A stretch of 23,419 bases of DNA from IMG/VR virus record IMGVR_UViG_3300037502_001335, positions 1 to 23,419 of that record. The stretch is one strand, 5' to 3'. Origin of the DNA: a virus. Shown one piece after another: positions 268 through 20,706 of this stretch. Position 1 is the first letter of the stretch. Every line of letters starts with the position of its first letter. Under the pieces are notes generated by a model. It had not been told where the DNA came from and did not search any database. It saw only the letters and a list, made by a program, of their open reading frames with translations. A program made the position numbers and the translations under genes.

Positions 268-282
268 CCTAACAATGTTAGG
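268..282. repeat. Palindrome copy 1 (CCTAACAATGTTAGG)
   Basis: Perfect 15-base odd palindrome. The TAA stop of the DUF3310 gene lies inside it, and it sits just before the terminator at 234-255. Confidence 0.9.
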
Positions 283-760
283 CGTGTTCAATCGCTCGGT
301 CCAGATACCAGCGGGCCTTCTCCAAGTCCTGCCTGCGGTTGCCCTTGTGGTCGGCACGAGTGATGTACTTGACCGCGTTGCCTAGATGATAGCCAAGCCC
401 TTTGGCCTCGATGAAGTCGATTGTCTCGATCCCACCGACCTTGTAGTGCGCCGGGTGGTTGACCAAGTCGGCTACGGGTTCTTCCGTCGTAGCAATCGTT
501 GGCAGCGGCTCAGACGAGGACATCACCGCGACGGTTTGCCATGTTTCGCGTGTTTTGTGGGCAAGCTCAGCGGCTGTGATTGCCCGCTGGTACGCAATTT
601 CTCCCTGCTCAGCGTCCTGTTTCAATTTTTTCATCTGCGACTTGATTGTGTAGACGTAGGGTACGCTCACGTTGAACTTGTTTGCTATCTCAGATGCTTT
701 ATCGCCTGGGTACTTTGTGACGTGTGCGCGAATTTTTGCTGCGAGTGATGTTTTAGCCAT
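278..760 (-). CDS. HTH plus DUF3310 protein
   Basis: 160 residues. The N-terminus (about 8-46) looks like a helix-turn-helix domain (ASEIANKFNVSVPYVYTIKSQMKKL). After a low-complexity linker, residues 101-157 match the DUF3310 family: NHPAHYKVGGIETIDFIEAK, then LGNAVKYITRA and DLEKARWYLDRAIE. DUF3310 is a common phage domain of uncertain biochemistry, often annotated as nucleotide-kinase-like. The fusion to an HTH is seen in other phages and could make it DNA-binding. I chose the ATG at 760 because AGGAG lies 8 bases upstream. The in-frame ATG at 766 gives an ATGA overlap with the upstream gene but sits only 2 bases from AGGAG. It is the last gene before the terminator. Confidence 0.85.
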   Translation of the reverse strand: MAKTSLAAKIRAHVTKYPGDKASEIANKFNVSVPYVYTIKSQMKKLKQDAEQGEIAYQRAITAAELAHKTRETWQTVAVMSSSEPLPTIATTEEPVADLVNHPAHYKVGGIETIDFIEAKGLGYHLGNAVKYITRADHKGNRRQDLEKARWYLDRAIEHA

Positions 761-762
761 GT

Positions 763-966
763 TCATTTCTCCTGTGTTTGGCTGTTGACGTAGTCGGTAA
801 GGATTTCTCTCATCTTGGCCTGCTTTGTCTCGGCGAAGTGCGTGGTGAAGTAGTCCATCACATCCTTCGGTAGACGCAAGCTCGTGCAAAGGAGCGCGGG
901 TTTCTTACCGGGTCCGCGCCCCTTGCGTTTCTTGATCGGTTTGAGTTCTTCAATTCCTGTAGTCAA
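763..966 (-). CDS. Small ribbon-helix-helix-like protein, TTG start
   Basis: 67 residues with a basic N-terminus (IKKRKGRGPGKK) and then LLCTSLRLPKDVMDYFTTHF plus QAKMREILTDYV, a strand-helix-helix pattern like Arc/BrnA-type ribbon-helix-helix DNA-binding proteins. The start is TTG, supported by GGAGG seven bases upstream, and it overlaps the upstream stop as TTGA. A role as a small repressor or antitoxin-like DNA binder is plausible but inferred; no toxin partner is visible next to it. Confidence 0.7.
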   Translation of the reverse strand: MTTGIEELKPIKKRKGRGPGKKPALLCTSLRLPKDVMDYFTTHFAETKQAKMREILTDYVNSQTQEK

Positions 967-5472: not shown

Positions 5473-6327
5473 TTAGAAATTGAACTTGTTCAAAATGTCA
5501 TCTACCTTCGACTTCAACTGCTTGCGGCAGTCGGCATCCTCTTTGATGCCCTCCATGTCTGCACCTAACATTGTTAGCTCAAGCTGACGCCGTGCCTCCT
5601 CCAACTTCGGGTCATTGGTGATGTTGAGCTTGGTGAGCAGGGAGCACAACTCCAGTGGGTTGCTGATAAGTGTGTCGTGGTAACGCTTCTTCCCGTCGTC
5701 ACCCTCCACATCTGTCAACTTCTTGGAGATGACATCCAACTCGGCGTGTAGCCTCTCCCACGGTTCACGACATGCTTCAGCCAATTTTTCGCGTTGCTGT
5801 GACTCAAACGTCACCACCAGTTCCCTCATGTCCTCGGCAGGCACATCGAGGCGAAAGTCCCCCGCCTCGGGCACAGGCTTGACCGTGCGGCGAAACCCAA
5901 ACTTGTGCTTGACCTCCTCAAGCTCCGGGTAGTCCTCTGCCTTGTACAGCCCCTGCAATGCATTGGGAGCCTCGGCCACCAGACGCGGATACTCGATGAA
6001 GAAGTTGTTGCACATGAGGTTGAACGTGTGTTCAAAGTTATTCATCGTGGTCTTGTAGTCCATGAACAACTTGGTCGGCAGCAGCCTCTCGCCCTTGTCG
6101 GCCCACGGCAGCGTGTGCTGGTTGTGATACAGCCGCGCCCGCGCCGCAAACTTCTCGATGTCTTTGCGTAGGCTCGTACCCGCAAACAGATTCTTCTTGG
6201 TCTGCGATGCCCCACGCACCGCCCCCGCGTCGATGTTCACCTTGTCGGTGATCTCTCGGTCTACCTTGCTGGCAGGCCACACGCTGATGTTCAACTCCAC
6301 TAACACTGCTGATGCGCTAATACTCAT
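5473..6327 (-). CDS. DUF3150-like protein of the AAA+/VWA module
   Basis: 284 residues. The start MSISASAVLVELNISVWPASKVDREITDKV and following KDIEKFAARARLYHNQHTLPWADKGERLLPTKLF resemble DUF3150 proteins, which occur in phages and integrative elements next to CobS/MoxR-like AAA+ ATPases and VWA proteins. I recognise the pattern but cannot confirm it without a profile search. The C-terminal half is rich in charged helices. GGAG lies upstream of the ATG, and ATGA joins it to the upstream gene. The genes for the AAA+ and VWA partners lie 3.8 and 0.7 kb upstream in the same direction. A palindrome copy (5565-5577) lies in its coding sequence, encoding LTML. Confidence 0.7.
   Translation of the reverse strand: MSISASAVLVELNISVWPASKVDREITDKVNIDAGAVRGASQTKKNLFAGTSLRKDIEKFAARARLYHNQHTLPWADKGERLLPTKLFMDYKTTMNNFEHTFNLMCNNFFIEYPRLVAEAPNALQGLYKAEDYPELEEVKHKFGFRRTVKPVPEAGDFRLDVPAEDMRELVVTFESQQREKLAEACREPWERLHAELDVISKKLTDVEGDDGKKRYHDTLISNPLELCSLLTKLNITNDPKLEEARRQLELTMLGADMEGIKEDADCRKQLKSKVDDILNKFNF
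5565..5577. repeat. Palindrome copy 3 (CTAACATTGTTAG), intragenic
   Basis: Perfect 13-base odd palindrome inside the DUF3150-like gene, read in frame as LTML. Confidence 0.9.
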
Positions 6328-6581
6328 TTCAGTTCTCCTTCAAAAGTTTCAAAGTCCCGGTGCTCCACACCGAAAAGTTTTACCGCCCCTACCACACCTA
6401 ACTTTGTTAGGTTGCGGAGTGGTTCTCCGTACACCATACTGCCTCCTAGCCCTCTGTAATAGACGGGCTGCACAAAGAACCGCCACGGCTTCCACCACAT
6501 GCGGGCAACTACGACACCCAAGACCGGGTTGCCCCAATCTCCGATGCTTGCCATATAGAAGGTTCCCGGTTGTAGCTTCAT
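6324..6581 (-). CDS. Hypothetical small aromatic-rich protein
   Basis: 85 residues: MKLQPGTFYMASIGDWGNPVLGVVVARMWWKPWRFFVQPVYYRGLGGSMVYGE. Rich in Trp, Phe and Tyr, but no clear transmembrane segment. No family recognised. Start and upstream stop overlap as TGATG; AGGGAAG lies just upstream. Its last codons (FETFEGELK) repeat those around the end of the region upstream of its start (FETFEGRL), suggesting a duplicated translation-initiation segment. Confidence 0.7.
   Translation of the reverse strand: MKLQPGTFYMASIGDWGNPVLGVVVARMWWKPWRFFVQPVYYRGLGGSMVYGEPLRNLTKLGVVGAVKLFGVEHRDFETFEGELK
6398..6410. repeat. Palindrome copy 4 (imperfect centre), intragenic
   Basis: CTAAC-TTT-GTTAG: both arms are intact (CCTAAC/GTTAGG with flanks) but the central ANT is changed. 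It encodes LTKL in the 85-aa gene. Confidence 0.75.
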
Positions 6582-6793
6582 CAGTCTTCCCTCAAAAGTT
6601 TCAAAAACCCAATCGCCCCGGCACGGGTCGGTGCTCGGGCTAATACTTCTACGCGGGTTTCGCCAAAGCCGTTTGGGATGTACTCTTTCTTCAGCACCAG
6701 CCAATCGTCTGTGGTCTTGCATATGCCGTACTCAACGGCATACAGTCGGTCAGGATTCCCGAACCACTCGGCTGGGTCTCGGTTGATAGCCAT
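6581..6793 (-). CDS. Hypothetical 70-aa protein
   Basis: MAINRDPAEWFGNPDRLYAVEYGICKTTDDWLVLKKEYIPNGFGETRVEVLARAPTRAGAIGFLKLLRED. Mixed alpha/beta prediction by eye; no family recognised. The start at 6793 follows AGGT and lies 6 bases after the TAG of the upstream gene. Confidence 0.7.
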   Translation of the reverse strand: MAINRDPAEWFGNPDRLYAVEYGICKTTDDWLVLKKEYIPNGFGETRVEVLARAPTRAGAIGFLKLLRED

Positions 6794-6799
6794 CGTTAC

Positions 6800-7042
6800 C
6801 TACCTGCTCGGCTTGCCCGCCAGCTTCGCCATCTGATACATCTGGGTTGACAGCAGGCGCATACTGTACGTTTTGCTGTTGGGGTAAACGTGGTACGTGT
6901 GGTCTGCACCCTCGGCCCCACGCTTTTCCTTCTCGATCCAAACCTCCTCGTAGACTTCTGCCTGCTCAAGCAACTCCACCAGCTTGATACCGCTCTCTCG
7001 GCTAAGAACAACCTTGTGCCAACCCAAGTCAACCACAATCAT
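6800..7042 (-). CDS. Hypothetical 80-aa protein
   Basis: MIVVDLGWHKVVLSRESGIKLVELLEQAEVYEEVWIEKEKR...HTYHVYPNSKTYSMRLLSTQMYQMAKLAGKPSR. The pattern (strand, helix with LVELLEQAE, then strands) suggests a compact alpha/beta protein; no function known. The start at 7042 is supported by GGGG six bases upstream; the longer in-frame extension overlaps the VWA gene and lacks a binding site. It follows the VWA gene by 10 bases and is probably co-translated with it. Confidence 0.7.
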   Translation of the reverse strand: MIVVDLGWHKVVLSRESGIKLVELLEQAEVYEEVWIEKEKRGAEGADHTYHVYPNSKTYSMRLLSTQMYQMAKLAGKPSR

Positions 7043-7052
7043 CTTGATCCCC

Positions 7053-8297
7053 TCAGTCCTTAATATGAATCGTCTTACCGTTGCTTGCGGTAACACCCTC
7101 TGGGCCGTTAACAATGCACCACATAGTAGGCGCAGTCCAATCCGAACCCCAGTCGTTGCCCACGTACCCGTCCGTGAGAATGATGATGCACTCCGGTTCA
7201 ATCTTCTTCTCCTTCAGGTACGTAGATACACATGATGGGCTCGTGCCTCCCCCACCCTTGGGCTTGGTCGAGCTAACAATGTTATGTACATCACCCTCAC
7301 CGTACTGCTCGTGCGCTGCCACCTCACAGTCCCAATAGAGCAAGTCCACCTGCTGCGGGTTGACCTCCTCGGCGATACCCTTGACCTCGGCAAGAAACTC
7401 AGACAACTCTTGGTCGCCAATGCTTCCTGATGTGTCGATAGCCACAACCAAGTGCCCCACCTTCTCACCGATCAGGCTCGGCATATACACACCCGAACTC
7501 AGGAACCTGCGGTTGACCCTGCGCCAGCTACTCGCATCCTTGGCTCGGCAGACAGTCTTGACGAACTCACGCAGCACCTCACGCCAGTTGACCTTGGGCT
7601 CCAACATCTCTTGAAGCATTCGGTCGAGGCCACCTGCGCCACTACCTGCAACCTTCTGGTGAGCGATCTGCCCCTGCCTTATGGCTTGGTCAATGTCACG
7701 GGCAAGCTGCTTCTTTTCTTCCTCGCTCATACCCTTGGCATCGCCCCAATCGTGCTCGTCGAGGCCAGCACTCCCACCGCCGCCATCACCATCGCCCCCC
7801 TCATCACCGCCGCCGCCTCCGCCTCCGCCTCCATCCTTTTGCTCTTGCTTGAGAATGTCGAACACCTGCTTGGCGTTCATGCCACGGAACCTCTCGTCGA
7901 TCAGGCCCATCGGCTTGCCCTTCATGGGCCCGTCAGCAAACCTAGGCATTGAGATAACCTGCTCACTCGGGTCAAGGTCGCGCAGCATCAGGTTAATCAC
8001 GTAGTCACAGGCGGCGTTGGCCAGACGGTGATCCTCATCATGCAGCTTGTTCCACGTAGTCAGATGCCGAAACATCTTGTGCCCAGCCTCGTGGGCCACC
8101 ACAAAGTTAAGCTCGGCCTCCTTTAGCTGCTTGACGAAAGCCCGACCGAACCTATCGTCCCGGCCATTGGTCACTGCTGTTGGGACGCGGTCATCCACAC
8201 TTGTCTTGCCCACCATCAAGATGCCCGAGAGCAGGGCAAACTTGGGGTTACGCATCAGGCTGATCTTGGCCTTCTGCAACTTGCGTTCTTCGTTCAT
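7053..8297 (-). CDS. DUF2201-type metallopeptidase/VWA protein (CobT/ViaA-like partner)
   Basis: 414 residues with two parts. The N-terminal part holds FVVAHEAGHKMFRH with an HExxH zinc-peptidase motif (HEAGH, 69-73), as in DUF2201 N-terminal domains. A very glycine-rich linker (about 156-178) leads to a C-terminal VWA-like domain with MIDAS-type residues DTSGS (288-292), a GGGGT loop (348-352) and LTDGY (374-378). Such proteins usually work with a MoxR-type AAA+ ATPase as a metal-dependent chaperone or insertase; the matching ATPase is at 9054-10130. The ATG at 8297 has AGGAG at spacing 7, and a palindrome copy runs directly into that AGGAG. A further palindrome (7273-7285) is inside the gene. 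Confidence 0.85.
   Translation of the reverse strand: MNEERKLQKAKISLMRNPKFALLSGILMVGKTSVDDRVPTAVTNGRDDRFGRAFVKQLKEAELNFVVAHEAGHKMFRHLTTWNKLHDEDHRLANAACDYVINLMLRDLDPSEQVISMPRFADGPMKGKPMGLIDERFRGMNAKQVFDILKQEQKDGGGGGGGGGDEGGDGDGGGGSAGLDEHDWGDAKGMSEEEKKQLARDIDQAIRQGQIAHQKVAGSGAGGLDRMLQEMLEPKVNWREVLREFVKTVCRAKDASSWRRVNRRFLSSGVYMPSLIGEKVGHLVVAIDTSGSIGDQELSEFLAEVKGIAEEVNPQQVDLLYWDCEVAAHEQYGEGDVHNIVSSTKPKGGGGTSPSCVSTYLKEKKIEPECIIILTDGYVGNDWGSDWTAPTMWCIVNGPEGVTASNGKTIHIKD
7273..7285. repeat. Palindrome copy 5 (CTAACAATGTTAT), intragenic
   Basis: One arm ends in TTAT rather than TTAG. It is read in frame as parts of HNIVS in the VWA domain. Confidence 0.75.
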
Positions 8298-8306
8298 GTC
8301 GTTACT

Positions 8307-8321
8307 CCTAACATTGTTATG
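8307..8321. repeat. Palindrome copy 6, fused to the Shine-Dalgarno of the VWA gene
   Basis: CCTAACATTGTTATG. Read on the minus strand, the terminal AGG of the palindrome is the first part of the AGGAG ribosome binding site of the VWA gene (start 8297). Confidence 0.85.
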
Positions 8322-8351
8322 CCCATCATTCAATCAACAGTTTCAAAAGAA

Positions 8352-8660
8352 TCAGTATTGCTTCTCCTCCTCCGCTGTTAGCAGCATGGATACATACCCC
8401 ACCACAGCTTGATAGTTGTGCCCTTCGTACAGCACCTCACGCGTAAGCTCGTGGTCAGAGGAGGAAAGGCTGCGCCTACCCCAACGTATCAACGCGAACT
8501 GATACATCGGCCCCGTATCGTGCCCAAAAGCTCGTTTGCTTACTTGAAGTTGGTACGAATAGTCGAACTTCTTGAGCTTGTTGAACTTCCACTCAAGCTC
8601 CTCCCATCCGGGAGGGTAGTTCACCCCGTTAATTTGGACGTACATATCCTGCTCACACAT
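8352..8660 (-). CDS. Hypothetical 102-aa protein
   Basis: MCEQDMYVQINGVNYPPGWEELEWKFNKLKKFDYSYQLQVSKRAFGHDTGPMYQFALIRWGRRSLSSSDHELTREVLYEGHNYQAVVGYVSMLLTAEEEKQY. No family recognised. The start is uncertain: ATG 8660 overlaps the upstream gene by 8 bases without a clear Shine-Dalgarno, and ATG 8645 (MYVQING) has only a short AGG close by. Separated from the VWA gene by about 54 bases. Confidence 0.65.
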   Translation of the reverse strand: MCEQDMYVQINGVNYPPGWEELEWKFNKLKKFDYSYQLQVSKRAFGHDTGPMYQFALIRWGRRSLSSSDHELTREVLYEGHNYQAVVGYVSMLLTAEEEKQY

Positions 8661-9042
8661 CCCAGGTGATGCTTCGACTAATGCCCAACATGCATCGGTC
8701 GGGCCCGTCCCGCACCACCTCTATATCGTTGTAGTCCTCACCTATACGGACGAACTCATACGCCCAGAAGGACGCGGGGGTTGCCACGCTTTTACCATCG
8801 AAGAAACTTGTGAACTTGTCCACAAACGCATTGAAGTCCTTCACCTCTGTATAGGACTCGTACCACTTTACATCGTCAACTTCAAACGCATAGCCAGCAG
8901 CGTTAGGGGTGCTAAACCACCGCAGCGCACCGCGCATCCATTCGTCTTTTGAGAAGTTCTCGTCCACAAACAACTTGAGCAGTGCCTCGTTTGCTGGGTC
9001 TGTTGTGTAGAACAGAGCCCCTATATTACTTCGGTATCCCAT
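8653..9042 (-). CDS. Hypothetical 129-aa protein ('MGYRSNIG')
   Basis: 129 residues starting MGYRSNIGALFYTTDPANEALLKLFVDENF. The 'GYRS-x-I/V' opening is a familiar start of small phage proteins with an alpha/beta sandwich-like pattern; no function known. I chose 9042 because GGGGTGG lies upstream at good spacing; ATG 9054 (overlapping the AAA+ stop as TGATG) lacks a binding site. It is translated right after the AAA+ ATPase, so it could be tied to that module. Confidence 0.7.
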   Translation of the reverse strand: MGYRSNIGALFYTTDPANEALLKLFVDENFSKDEWMRGALRWFSTPNAAGYAFEVDDVKWYESYTEVKDFNAFVDKFTSFFDGKSVATPASFWAYEFVRIGEDYNDIEVVRDGPDRCMLGISRSITWDV

Positions 9043-9053
9043 CTTCCACCCCA

Positions 9054-10130
9054 TCACAACAGGTCTTGGTTTTTTGCAACCCACTCGGCGAACGCCTTGG
9101 CGCTGAACGCGATTGACTGCTTGCTCGGGGTACGTGCGATGTTGATTGCAAACACCGCCTGCCACTCGGGGTCGAACCGCTCCAGATACTCCATGAATGG
9201 GTTGATGGTGTCCTTCGTAACCCTAGAGATTGCGCCGAACACCACGATGGCACACGCACCAGGGCTCGACGGCAGCTTGGTGTTCTTCGGGTCTTTGATC
9301 GTCGATTCCCACGTAGGCAGTTGGTCAGCGAACTCGATGTACGCCTGCATGTCACGCGCCGCAGCCTCACCCACTGCGCCGGAGAGCGCAGCGATTACCG
9401 AGTCGGCGTCGTTGAGCTTCCTCGTCCTAACAATGTTCGATGCAGTCTCCAACGAGCGCGGGGAAACAAACGCAGTCTGCGACTTCTTCGGGTTGTAGAT
9501 GTACGGGTTGTCCCCCTGCGCCGCGTCTGTGTACGATGCAAGGGCGTGTGGGTATTGGTTGACCCACGCAAGCACCTCGGCCTCGATACCCTTGTTGATA
9601 CCCCACTCGATCCACTCCTCGGCAGTGGGCTTGCTGATCGTCACCGGGACCAGCCGGTTACGGCTATGTGCTTTGAGGTTGTCACCTACGCCGTCGGTTG
9701 TGAGGTTGCCCGTGAGAAACACGATGGTCTGCCGGGGCCCGTCCTTGGGCAGTGGGTTGTCACCGAGTCGAGGGTTGGCCTTCTCAAGCATCGGGTGCAG
9801 CATGTTCTTCACCGGGTCCGCGCCCTTGGTGAACTCGTCGAGCATGATCAGCAGGGGCTTGCCCTCATGAATCTTGAACCGGGCATTGGGGTAGTAGCGG
9901 GTTGTCTTGGTGTCGTGGTCGATCACCGGCATTGCGATGTCGCCCAGGTCCATGTTGGGTACGTCGATATACGCATACTCGTACCCCAGATCACCAGCGA
10001 TGTTCTCCAGCAGGGAACTCTTGCCGATACCCGGCTCGCCTTGCAACAAGAACCGCGTCTCCGGGTTGGTCTTGATCAAGGTGGCTGCCTGCTTGAGCGT
10101 GATGCGCTTACCGAAAGATACTTCTGACAT
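9054..10130 (-). CDS. MoxR/CobS-like AAA+ ATPase
   Basis: 358 residues. Walker A GEPGIGKSS (31-39), Walker B LLIMLDEF (93-100), sensor-1 region FLTGN (138-142) and a likely arginine-finger segment SRNRL (156-160) define an AAA+ ATPase of the MoxR/CobS/RavA branch. These ATPases form rings that remodel proteins together with VWA partners; the partner here is at 7053-8297. It is the first gene behind the consensus promoter at 10225-10253, with a leader of about 85 bases carrying a palindrome copy. GAGG lies 8 bases before the ATG. A further imperfect palindrome (9427-9439) is in the coding sequence. Which protein it remodels in infection is unknown. Confidence 0.9.
   Translation of the reverse strand: MSEVSFGKRITLKQAATLIKTNPETRFLLQGEPGIGKSSLLENIAGDLGYEYAYIDVPNMDLGDIAMPVIDHDTKTTRYYPNARFKIHEGKPLLIMLDEFTKGADPVKNMLHPMLEKANPRLGDNPLPKDGPRQTIVFLTGNLTTDGVGDNLKAHSRNRLVPVTISKPTAEEWIEWGINKGIEAEVLAWVNQYPHALASYTDAAQGDNPYIYNPKKSQTAFVSPRSLETASNIVRTRKLNDADSVIAALSGAVGEAAARDMQAYIEFADQLPTWESTIKDPKNTKLPSSPGACAIVVFGAISRVTKDTINPFMEYLERFDPEWQAVFAINIARTPSKQSIAFSAKAFAEWVAKNQDLL
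9427..9439. repeat. Palindrome copy 7 (degenerate arm), intragenic
   Basis: CTAACAATGTTCG: one arm is degraded to GTTCG. It encodes NIVR in the AAA+ gene. Confidence 0.6.
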
Positions 10131-10151: not shown

Positions 10152-10166
10152 CCTAACACTGTTAGG
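10152..10166. repeat. Palindrome copy 8, in the leader of the AAA+ gene
   Basis: CCTAACACTGTTAGG, perfect arms, 21 bases upstream of the ATG of the AAA+ gene and inside its predicted mRNA leader. Confidence 0.9.
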
Positions 10167-10224: not shown

Positions 10225-10253
10225 AGTATACCACACTTACTTGACATTGTCAA
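10225..10253 (-). promoter_or_regulatory. Strong sigma70 promoter for the AAA+ operon, with palindrome over the -35
   Basis: Read leftward: TTGACA (10248-10253), a 17-base spacer and TATACT (10225-10230), close to the full consensus. The -35 lies inside a perfect odd palindrome, CTTGACATTGTCAAG (10240-10254; 17 bases with flanking A/T), which would be a natural repressor site. The palindrome also places a TTGACA on the plus strand, followed at 18 bases by TATCAT, so weak rightward transcription is possible. Confidence 0.85.
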
Positions 10254-14212: not shown

Positions 14213-14241
14213 AAAAAAGCCACCTAACAATGTTAGGTGGC
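14213..14241 (-). terminator. Terminator whose stem is an extended palindrome copy 16
   Basis: The palindrome is lengthened to an 11-bp stem (GCCACCTAACA/TGTTAGGTGGC, 14219-14241) and, read leftward, followed by six T (complement of 14213-14218). It therefore works as a rho-independent terminator built from the dispersed element. It is the second of two in tandem. Confidence 0.8.
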
Positions 14242-14249
14242 GTAGAAAC

Positions 14250-14273
14250 AAAAAAGCCCGCCGAGTGGCGGGC
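14250..14273 (-). terminator. Rho-independent terminator of the 15038-14292 operon
   Basis: Read leftward: a 7-bp GC stem GCCCGCC/GGCGGGC (14256-14273), 4-base loop, then six T. It lies 19 bases after the stop of the 71-aa gene. With the next terminator it isolates the candidate origin from transcription coming from the right. Confidence 0.9.
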
Positions 14274-14291
14274 TGGTCGGAGCGGGGAGGG

Positions 14292-20115: not shown

Positions 20116-20309
20116 TGAGTGATGCCATCCATGCGTTTGCGCATGTGCAGAGAGAGATTGATAAGTACCGGCAGGAGCAAGTCGCCTTTCTTACAGCCAG
20201 CCGTGCCGATTCGTACGATGAGTACAAAAAAATCTGCGGAGTGATCCGGGGTCTTAACTACGCAGATCATTTGATTGACGACCTCGTGCAAAGGATAAAG
20301 AATGATTGA
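20115..20309 (+). CDS. Hypothetical 64-aa helical protein in the head cluster
   Basis: MSDAIHAFAHVQREIDKYRQEQVAFLTASRADSYDEYKKICGVIRGLNYADHLIDDLVQRIKND. Wholly helical by eye, charged. Small proteins of this type are common between portal and scaffold genes; no function established. TAATG overlap with the portal stop; GGAG about 9 bases upstream. Confidence 0.75.
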   Translation: MSDAIHAFAHVQREIDKYRQEQVAFLTASRADSYDEYKKICGVIRGLNYADHLIDDLVQRIKND

Positions 20310-20706
20310 TTACGATGTGGCCGCAGTGGACCTATCCGGCATTTTGAACAAAAGTGCAGAGGAGAAGGCCAAGCAACTTCCTGACCCAAAGACGTACCAC
20401 ATGCTTTGTGTGGTGCCCGAGGCGATGGCGGAGTATGAAGATAGCGAAATTCTCAAAGCCGCCCAAACCATGCACTACGAGGAGGTTCTGACTCCCGTGC
20501 TGTTTGTGATCAAGCTTGGGCCTGACTGCTTCAAGGACAAGACTCGGTTCCCCAGTGGGCCATCGTGCAAGGAGGGTGACTTTGTCATCGTCCGACCCAA
20601 TTCAGGCACCCGCTTGAAGATTCATGGCCGAGAGTTCCGGATCATCAATGATGAGTCGGTCGAGGCTATTGTGGAAGACCCGCGTGGCATTTCGCGTGCA
20701 TCGTAA
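20302..20706 (+). CDS. GroES-like co-chaperonin (phage-encoded)
   Basis: 134 residues. The segment KEGDFVIVRPNSGTRLKIHGREFRIINDESVEAIVED (90-126) follows the conserved pattern of the chaperonin-10 barrel: GD-x-V, SGT-x-x-K/I, G-x-EF-x-I and V-x-AI. The region between about 40 and 89 holds VVPEAM...LTPVLFVIKLGPDCFKDKTRFPSGPSC, where the GroES mobile loop would lie. T4 gp31 is the known phage co-chaperonin needed to fold the capsid protein; the position between portal and scaffold fits a similar job. The family call rests on motif reading only. It overlaps the upstream gene by 8 bases. Confidence 0.7.
   Translation: MIDYDVAAVDLSGILNKSAEEKAKQLPDPKTYHMLCVVPEAMAEYEDSEILKAAQTMHYEEVLTPVLFVIKLGPDCFKDKTRFPSGPSCKEGDFVIVRPNSGTRLKIHGREFRIINDESVEAIVEDPRGISRAS

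Follow-up and report, generated by a model that had tools for sequence, protein, structure and literature searches.

What task is served by an AAA+ ATPase, a putative metallopeptidase carrying a VWA domain and a DUF3150 protein which are encoded together in a virus? The question is raised by a leftward operon in a 23.4-kb viral contig, IMG/VR virus record IMGVR_UViG_3300037502_001335, whose positions 1 to 23,419 are called the window here (coordinates are collected in Table 1). According to our analysis, the three proteins form a conserved trio in phages and on plasmids, which we tentatively read as an early-expressed machine that remodels a protein complex. The ATPase–(peptidase-VWA) pair is already known, and database records already name the parts of the trio separately. 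In the literature searched, where DUF3150 is not mentioned, we found no account of the trio as a unit conserved in both phages and plasmids, and as such it appears to be undescribed.

Domains and conserved residues of the trio

The ATPase matches the family AAA_5 (1.5e-6), not AAA_3, and PHROG_1297 (ATPase; 4.4e-48). It is of the MoxR/AAA_5 type with its catalytic residues intact, the Walker A GK, the Walker B DE, the sensor N142, R159 and R225 being found in essentially all complete homologs. By profile, the closest solved sequences are midasins, with a score to which more than one AAA module of a single chain contributes. The second protein matches DUF2201_N (9.8e-29) and DUF2201/VWA (4.3e-17), and both domains (PF13203 and PF09967) lie above their curated cutoffs (101.2 versus 23.2 bits and 62.8 versus 26.4 bits). 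In the curated alignment, H69-E70-x-x-H73 and the MIDAS residues D288-S290-S292, T352 and D376 are invariant. An original prediction, made from the sequence of the window alone, had staked its reading on the conservation of both motifs in relatives, and they are conserved: HExxH is kept in 155 of 173 distinct homologs, the remaining rows being truncated at the site except for one Variovorax copy, and the MIDAS D-S-S triad in all 171 rows covering it, counts which call for caution since later VWA homologs were fetched with patterns containing part of the conserved stretches. As expected of a zincin, HExxH falls within a helix (residues 60 to 76) and is accompanied by candidate ligands. H78, N94, D98 and N102 are nearly as constant as HExxH itself, and D98 or H78 may provide the third metal ligand. 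In the predicted structure, the VWA half is canonical (Z up to 12.9), with the midasin MIDAS domain as its top Foldseek match, and the N-terminal half consists of strands followed by the helix which contains HExxH.

PHROG_1314 and many RefSeq phage records, e.g., NC_023581.1 (L003:4929-6134), label the peptidase-VWA protein as an HNH endonuclease. Pfam detects no HNH domain in the window protein, finding DUF2201_N and DUF2201 instead, and the label is probably a propagated misannotation.

The third protein, taken alone, is too divergent and remains below the Pfam DUF3150 model (PF11348). However, 9 of 37 aligned homologs match this model (best 3.6e-6), the MinM2 homolog, 28% identical, is annotated as DUF3150, and profile comparison with plasmid DUF3150 proteins gave 4e-35 and 1e-26, so that membership in the family is firmly indicated through the homologs and the plasmid profiles. 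The predicted structure is mainly helical (mean pLDDT 78) and has no PDB match with E below 0.001, which counts as no match found and not as a new fold. VMAP-M1 matches are weak and present in 4 of the 37 homologs (best 0.002), with none for the window protein.

Linkage, genome position and promoter

Forty-eight VWA loci have full context, the VWA gene being sufficiently flanked on either side. All 48 carry the ATPase, 44 carry DUF3150 and 38 a fourth gene, which encodes p296 in the window. The trio occurs in at least three gene orders (ATPase-VWA-DUF3150, DUF3150-ATPase-VWA and ATPase-DUF3150-VWA), and its linkage is therefore not explained by shared order alone. The module is core: when contigs were chosen by terminase similarity, a selection independent of the module, 20 of 20 with at least 10 kb upstream carried the VWA protein and DUF3150. 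In the close clade, the trio proteins share roughly 65 to 90% identity, and the neighbors p351 and p296 about 30%. Relatives of the VWA protein are held by 653 phage records, and the trio is present in many freshwater phages as well as on bacterial plasmids; a scan of genome contigs returned only three relatives.

Related genomes measure about 60 to 65 kb. In one of 65 kb (G001), the module lies near, and on the same strand as, genes for DNA polymerase, primase/helicase, helicase, exonuclease and endonuclease VII, with the structural genes on the opposite strand. MinM2 carries all three members of the trio with a primase nearby, and in the N4-like phage Presley the ATPase and VWA genes adjoin those of exonuclease V and DNA polymerase.

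The operon of the window is preceded by a near-consensus sigma70 promoter, TTGACA-17-TATACT with a TG, which has 11 of 12 consensus matches. A promoter resembling TTGACA-17-TATAAT, with 11 or more of the 12 positions matching, is kept in 35 of the 37 relatives with an ATPase identity of at least 70%, about 98 to 156 nt upstream of the ATPase gene, which bears out the strong promoter proposed earlier. It may be regulated, as suggested by a pair of palindromes, one over the -35 and one 23 bp before the ATPase start.

Six proteobacterial plasmids carry the ATPase, DUF3150 and VWA genes in this order. Compared with the phage operon, all three components of the Burkholderiales/Rhodospirillales plasmid operon are homologous and keep HExxH and MIDAS, whereas the gene order and the flanks differ. 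On the three Burkholderiaceae plasmids, of B. anthina, B. vietnamiensis and Robbsia (L131/L222, L215/L219 and L217), the trio is located between PRTRC or ParB/ThiF-type genes and type IV secretion genes. It adjoins secretion genes in P. graminis and lies downstream of RecT, nuclease, SSB and toprim genes in Simplicispira. DUF3150 was found in 3 of 300 genomes of a Burkholderiales sample, its center included. In the VWA tree, where some branches are long and the deepest placements unsure, the plasmid and chromosomal copies of Burkholderiales group together with support and separately from most phages, which suggests that the trio is old in both phages and plasmids. The earlier remark that the module is seen in other mobile elements is thus confirmed and extended, to the trio on plasmids and in other phages.

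Comparison with known systems

A MoxR ATPase–(metallopeptidase-vWA) pair has been published for group 2.2 jumbo phages, for which virion assembly and proteolysis were proposed (Iyer et al. 2021, PMC7824862). The window shares with it the AAA+ ATPase adjoining a vWA protein that has a metallopeptidase domain at its N terminus, but differs by DUF3150 and the lineage-specific fourth gene, by the genome size of about 60 to 65 kb and by the location in the replication arm. In N4, gp24 and gp25 are core and middle genes (PMC4193335). These Schitoviridae core genes likewise encode an AAA+ ATPase and a DUF2201-VWA protein, the gp25-type relative Presley_33 being about 30% identical to ours, whereas the N4 pair is transcribed by a phage polymerase and no DUF3150 homolog was found in Presley.

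NorQ–NorD, RavA–ViaA and midasin/Rea1 all combine a MoxR/midasin-type AAA+ with a VWA/MIDAS partner but serve other client complexes. We know of no HExxH domain in VWA partners of the NorD, ViaA or midasin/Rea1 type. Neither the LARA domain of RavA nor a ViaA-type family appeared among the Pfam matches, with no direct comparison to a ViaA/LARA model, and an ATPase of 358 aa has little space for a further domain. The MoxR-VWA pairs described in the literature act on protein complexes by remodeling them, NorQ-NorD by means of a VWA finger placed in the pore of the ring (PMC13036017) and p618–p892 of the archaeal virus ATV in connection with tail development (PMC4124505). The ATV pair is also a virus-encoded MoxR ATPase with a VWA partner; it differs in having no peptidase domain (PMC7824862) and in being linked to extracellular tail growth. 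On the basis of domains and motifs, the MoxR-VWA reading of the original prediction holds.

Proposed function and alternatives

We favor, at somewhat short of an even chance, an early-expressed AAA+ remodeling machine in which the peptidase-VWA partner takes hold of one protein complex and perhaps cuts it, the DUF3150 protein serving as adaptor. The ATPase would assemble as a ring, on which the VWA domain would dock by analogy with NorD on NorQ and with midasin's own MIDAS domain. MIDAS, the DUF3150 adaptor or both would hold one client protein, ATP-driven motion would pull or twist it, and the zincin-like site would cut it or be armed by this motion. The most likely client would be a complex, of protein or nucleoprotein, that is encountered soon after entry, during host takeover, replication or recombination, and not the virion, since the promoter type, the genome location and the presence on plasmids favor an early, non-virion client. 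The machine is further supported by DUF3150 traveling with the ATPase and VWA proteins in phages and plasmids despite changes in gene order, by the presence of the trio on plasmids, which are without virions (in one case near genes such as those for RecT and toprim), and by the resemblance of both the ATPase sequence and the VWA model to midasin.

Several observations weigh against such a machine. The promoter is missing in relatives below 70% ATPase identity, and a host-type promoter likely means transcription by the host polymerase and says nothing on timing. A zincin fold is what we infer for the N-terminal half from the motif, the Pfam name and the predicted helices, and a PDB search with the whole VWA-protein model matched the VWA half only. 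No NorD-like pore finger was identified in the peptidase-VWA protein. The chromosomal copy of Variovorax sp. WDL1 (L128:8905-10236) has lost HExxH, the HE being replaced, and kept MIDAS; peptidase activity is therefore not always needed, and this copy suggests that the role of the VWA domain can persist once the peptidase site is lost. In Presley, the gene that separates the ATPase from the VWA protein is other than DUF3150, which is thus not indispensable to the pair.

In the N4-like phage RPP1, genes for four virion proteins lie close to the gp24/gp25 homologs (PMC4193335). Structural genes in this position in some N4-like phages favor virion maturation there, and this is the role proposed by Iyer et al. 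for jumbo phages, where the ATPase-VWA pair would assist the folding of tail or head proteins, which the peptidase would trim. The pair is the same as theirs (PMC7824862), the ATV pair is tied to tails (PMC4124505), and a core module would suit a virion-assembly chaperone and maturation protease. We nevertheless regard this as unlikely for the window, while granting it limited credence: the module lies in the divergent replication arm away from the structural genes, its promoter is of host type, and the trio is also found on plasmids, which produce no virions, although some of their copies adjoin type IV secretion genes. Action against host defense, also raised by the original prediction, would mean that a host immune complex is taken apart or cleaved shortly after entry, and this seems quite improbable. 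An early-type promoter, the sharing of the trio by phages and plasmids, both of which face host defenses, and its rarity in Burkholderiales genomes (3/300) would suit counter-defense, but anti-defense genes are patchy and fast-evolving, whereas this module is invariably present and keeps its high identity in the close clade beside neighbors at about 30%. A core, slowly evolving module counts against an arms-race gene, and PADLOC, by which known defense systems were considered and rejected, yielded weak P-loop matches only.

Scarcely any weight is left to a viral cobaltochelatase, in which CobS and CobT would work with the host CobN and raise cobalamin synthesis, as Liu et al. 2021 read cobST pairs in tailed viruses. 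The layout of an AAA+ plus a VWA/MIDAS protein is the same, and these authors state that peptidase is a frequent annotation for viral cobT (PMC8651126). However, no CobS or CobT family model matched at E up to 10, the partner matches DUF2201_N and DUF2201 with an invariant HExxH, and a third protein, DUF3150, is linked. A CobST identity was hence rejected, and metal loading of the CobN-CobST kind, also raised by the original prediction, finds no support. The early-type promoter, the replication arm, the core status and the plasmid copies together argue against pure virion maturation, a cobaltochelatase and a fast-evolving anti-defense gene. A wider proposal, which we consider doubtful, is that the trio is a general mobile-DNA system common to lytic phages and conjugative plasmids, which would act soon after entry to remodel or cleave a single complex of the host or of the element, as a split, protease-armed relative of midasin.

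Organization of the operon and other features of the window

The left part of the window contains leftward genes, namely small open reading frames and the module, while the right part contains rightward genes for terminase, portal and the start of the major head protein. The module operon spans 10253 to 4579 on the minus strand, from the promoter to the end of the fourth gene, and the stop/start codon overlaps (TGATG, ATGA) at several junctions fit with a single operon. The anatomy predicted earlier (the ATPase, a protein with HExxH and VWA/MIDAS, a DUF3150-like protein and a 294-aa protein in a leftward operon) agrees with ours in coordinates, domains and motifs, but five small genes were found instead of four; their presence varies across relatives. 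The fourth gene product, p296, has scattered, single PHROG matches only.

Table 1. Features of the module operon, in the direction of transcription
Feature	Positions	Strand	Evidence or remarks
Sigma70-type extended -10 promoter TTGACA-N17-TATACT	10225..10253	(-)	-35 within palindrome CTTGACAATGTCAAG; 11/12
Leader palindrome CTAACACTGTTAG	10153..10165	(.)	23 bp before ATPase start
AAA+ ATPase, MoxR/midasin (AAA_5) type, 358 aa	9054..10130	(-)	Pfam, PHROG, motifs
Small gene of no assigned family, 133 aa	8653..9054	(-)	Start overlaps ATPase stop (TGATG); varies among relatives
Small gene of no assigned family, 102 aa	8352..8660	(-)	Varies among relatives
DUF2201_N putative metallopeptidase, Gly-rich linker and VWA (MIDAS) protein, 414 aa	7053..8297	(-)	Pfam, motifs; VWA fold in model
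Small gene of no assigned family, 80 aa	6800..7042	(-)	Common in relatives
Small gene of no assigned family, 70 aa	6581..6793	(-)	
Small gene of no assigned family, 85 aa	6324..6581	(-)	Coupled to both neighbors (TGATG, ATGA)
DUF3150-family protein, 284 aa	5473..6327	(-)	Homolog matches, profile comparison; no confident fold match
Lineage-specific fourth gene, family unassigned, 294/296 aa	4579..5469	(-)	294 aa from ATG 5463 or 296 aa from GTG 5469

When up to one mismatch is allowed, the 13-bp palindrome CTAACA-N-TGTTAG occurs at 17 places in the window (34 hits over both strands versus 0.16 expected by chance), at 269, 4919, 5565, 6398, 7273, 8308, 9427, 10153, 10802, 11986, 12647, 13138, 13402, 13592, 14068, 14224 and 15052. 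The sites are both intragenic and intergenic, often 11 to 25 bp before a start codon, and the structural part is free of them. In a 62-kb relative (G002), 12 sites of this kind are present, every one at 12.1 to 27.4 kb in the non-structural arm. The array resembles dispersed repressor sites (stoperators). An RNA-hairpin reading of the palindrome is less likely because A6 and T8, which would be loop bases, are almost always conserved. Terminator-like hairpins are found on the minus strand at 14219-14241 and 14255-14274, one of them built around a copy of the palindrome.

Elsewhere in the window, a gene at the left end (278-889, minus strand) encodes a protein with a DUF3310 domain (2e-21), and the product of a gene between those for portal and head (20302-20706, plus strand) has a GroES-like PHROG match at its C terminus (9e-7) and no Pfam match.

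Significance

The ATPase–(peptidase-VWA) pair belongs to the core gene set of hundreds of phages, including N4, and many records name its second protein an HNH endonuclease. That the module is early-type, lineage-invariant, linked to DUF3150 and carried on plasmids without virions narrows the hypotheses on its role and opens the question to tests in N4 and in a plasmid.

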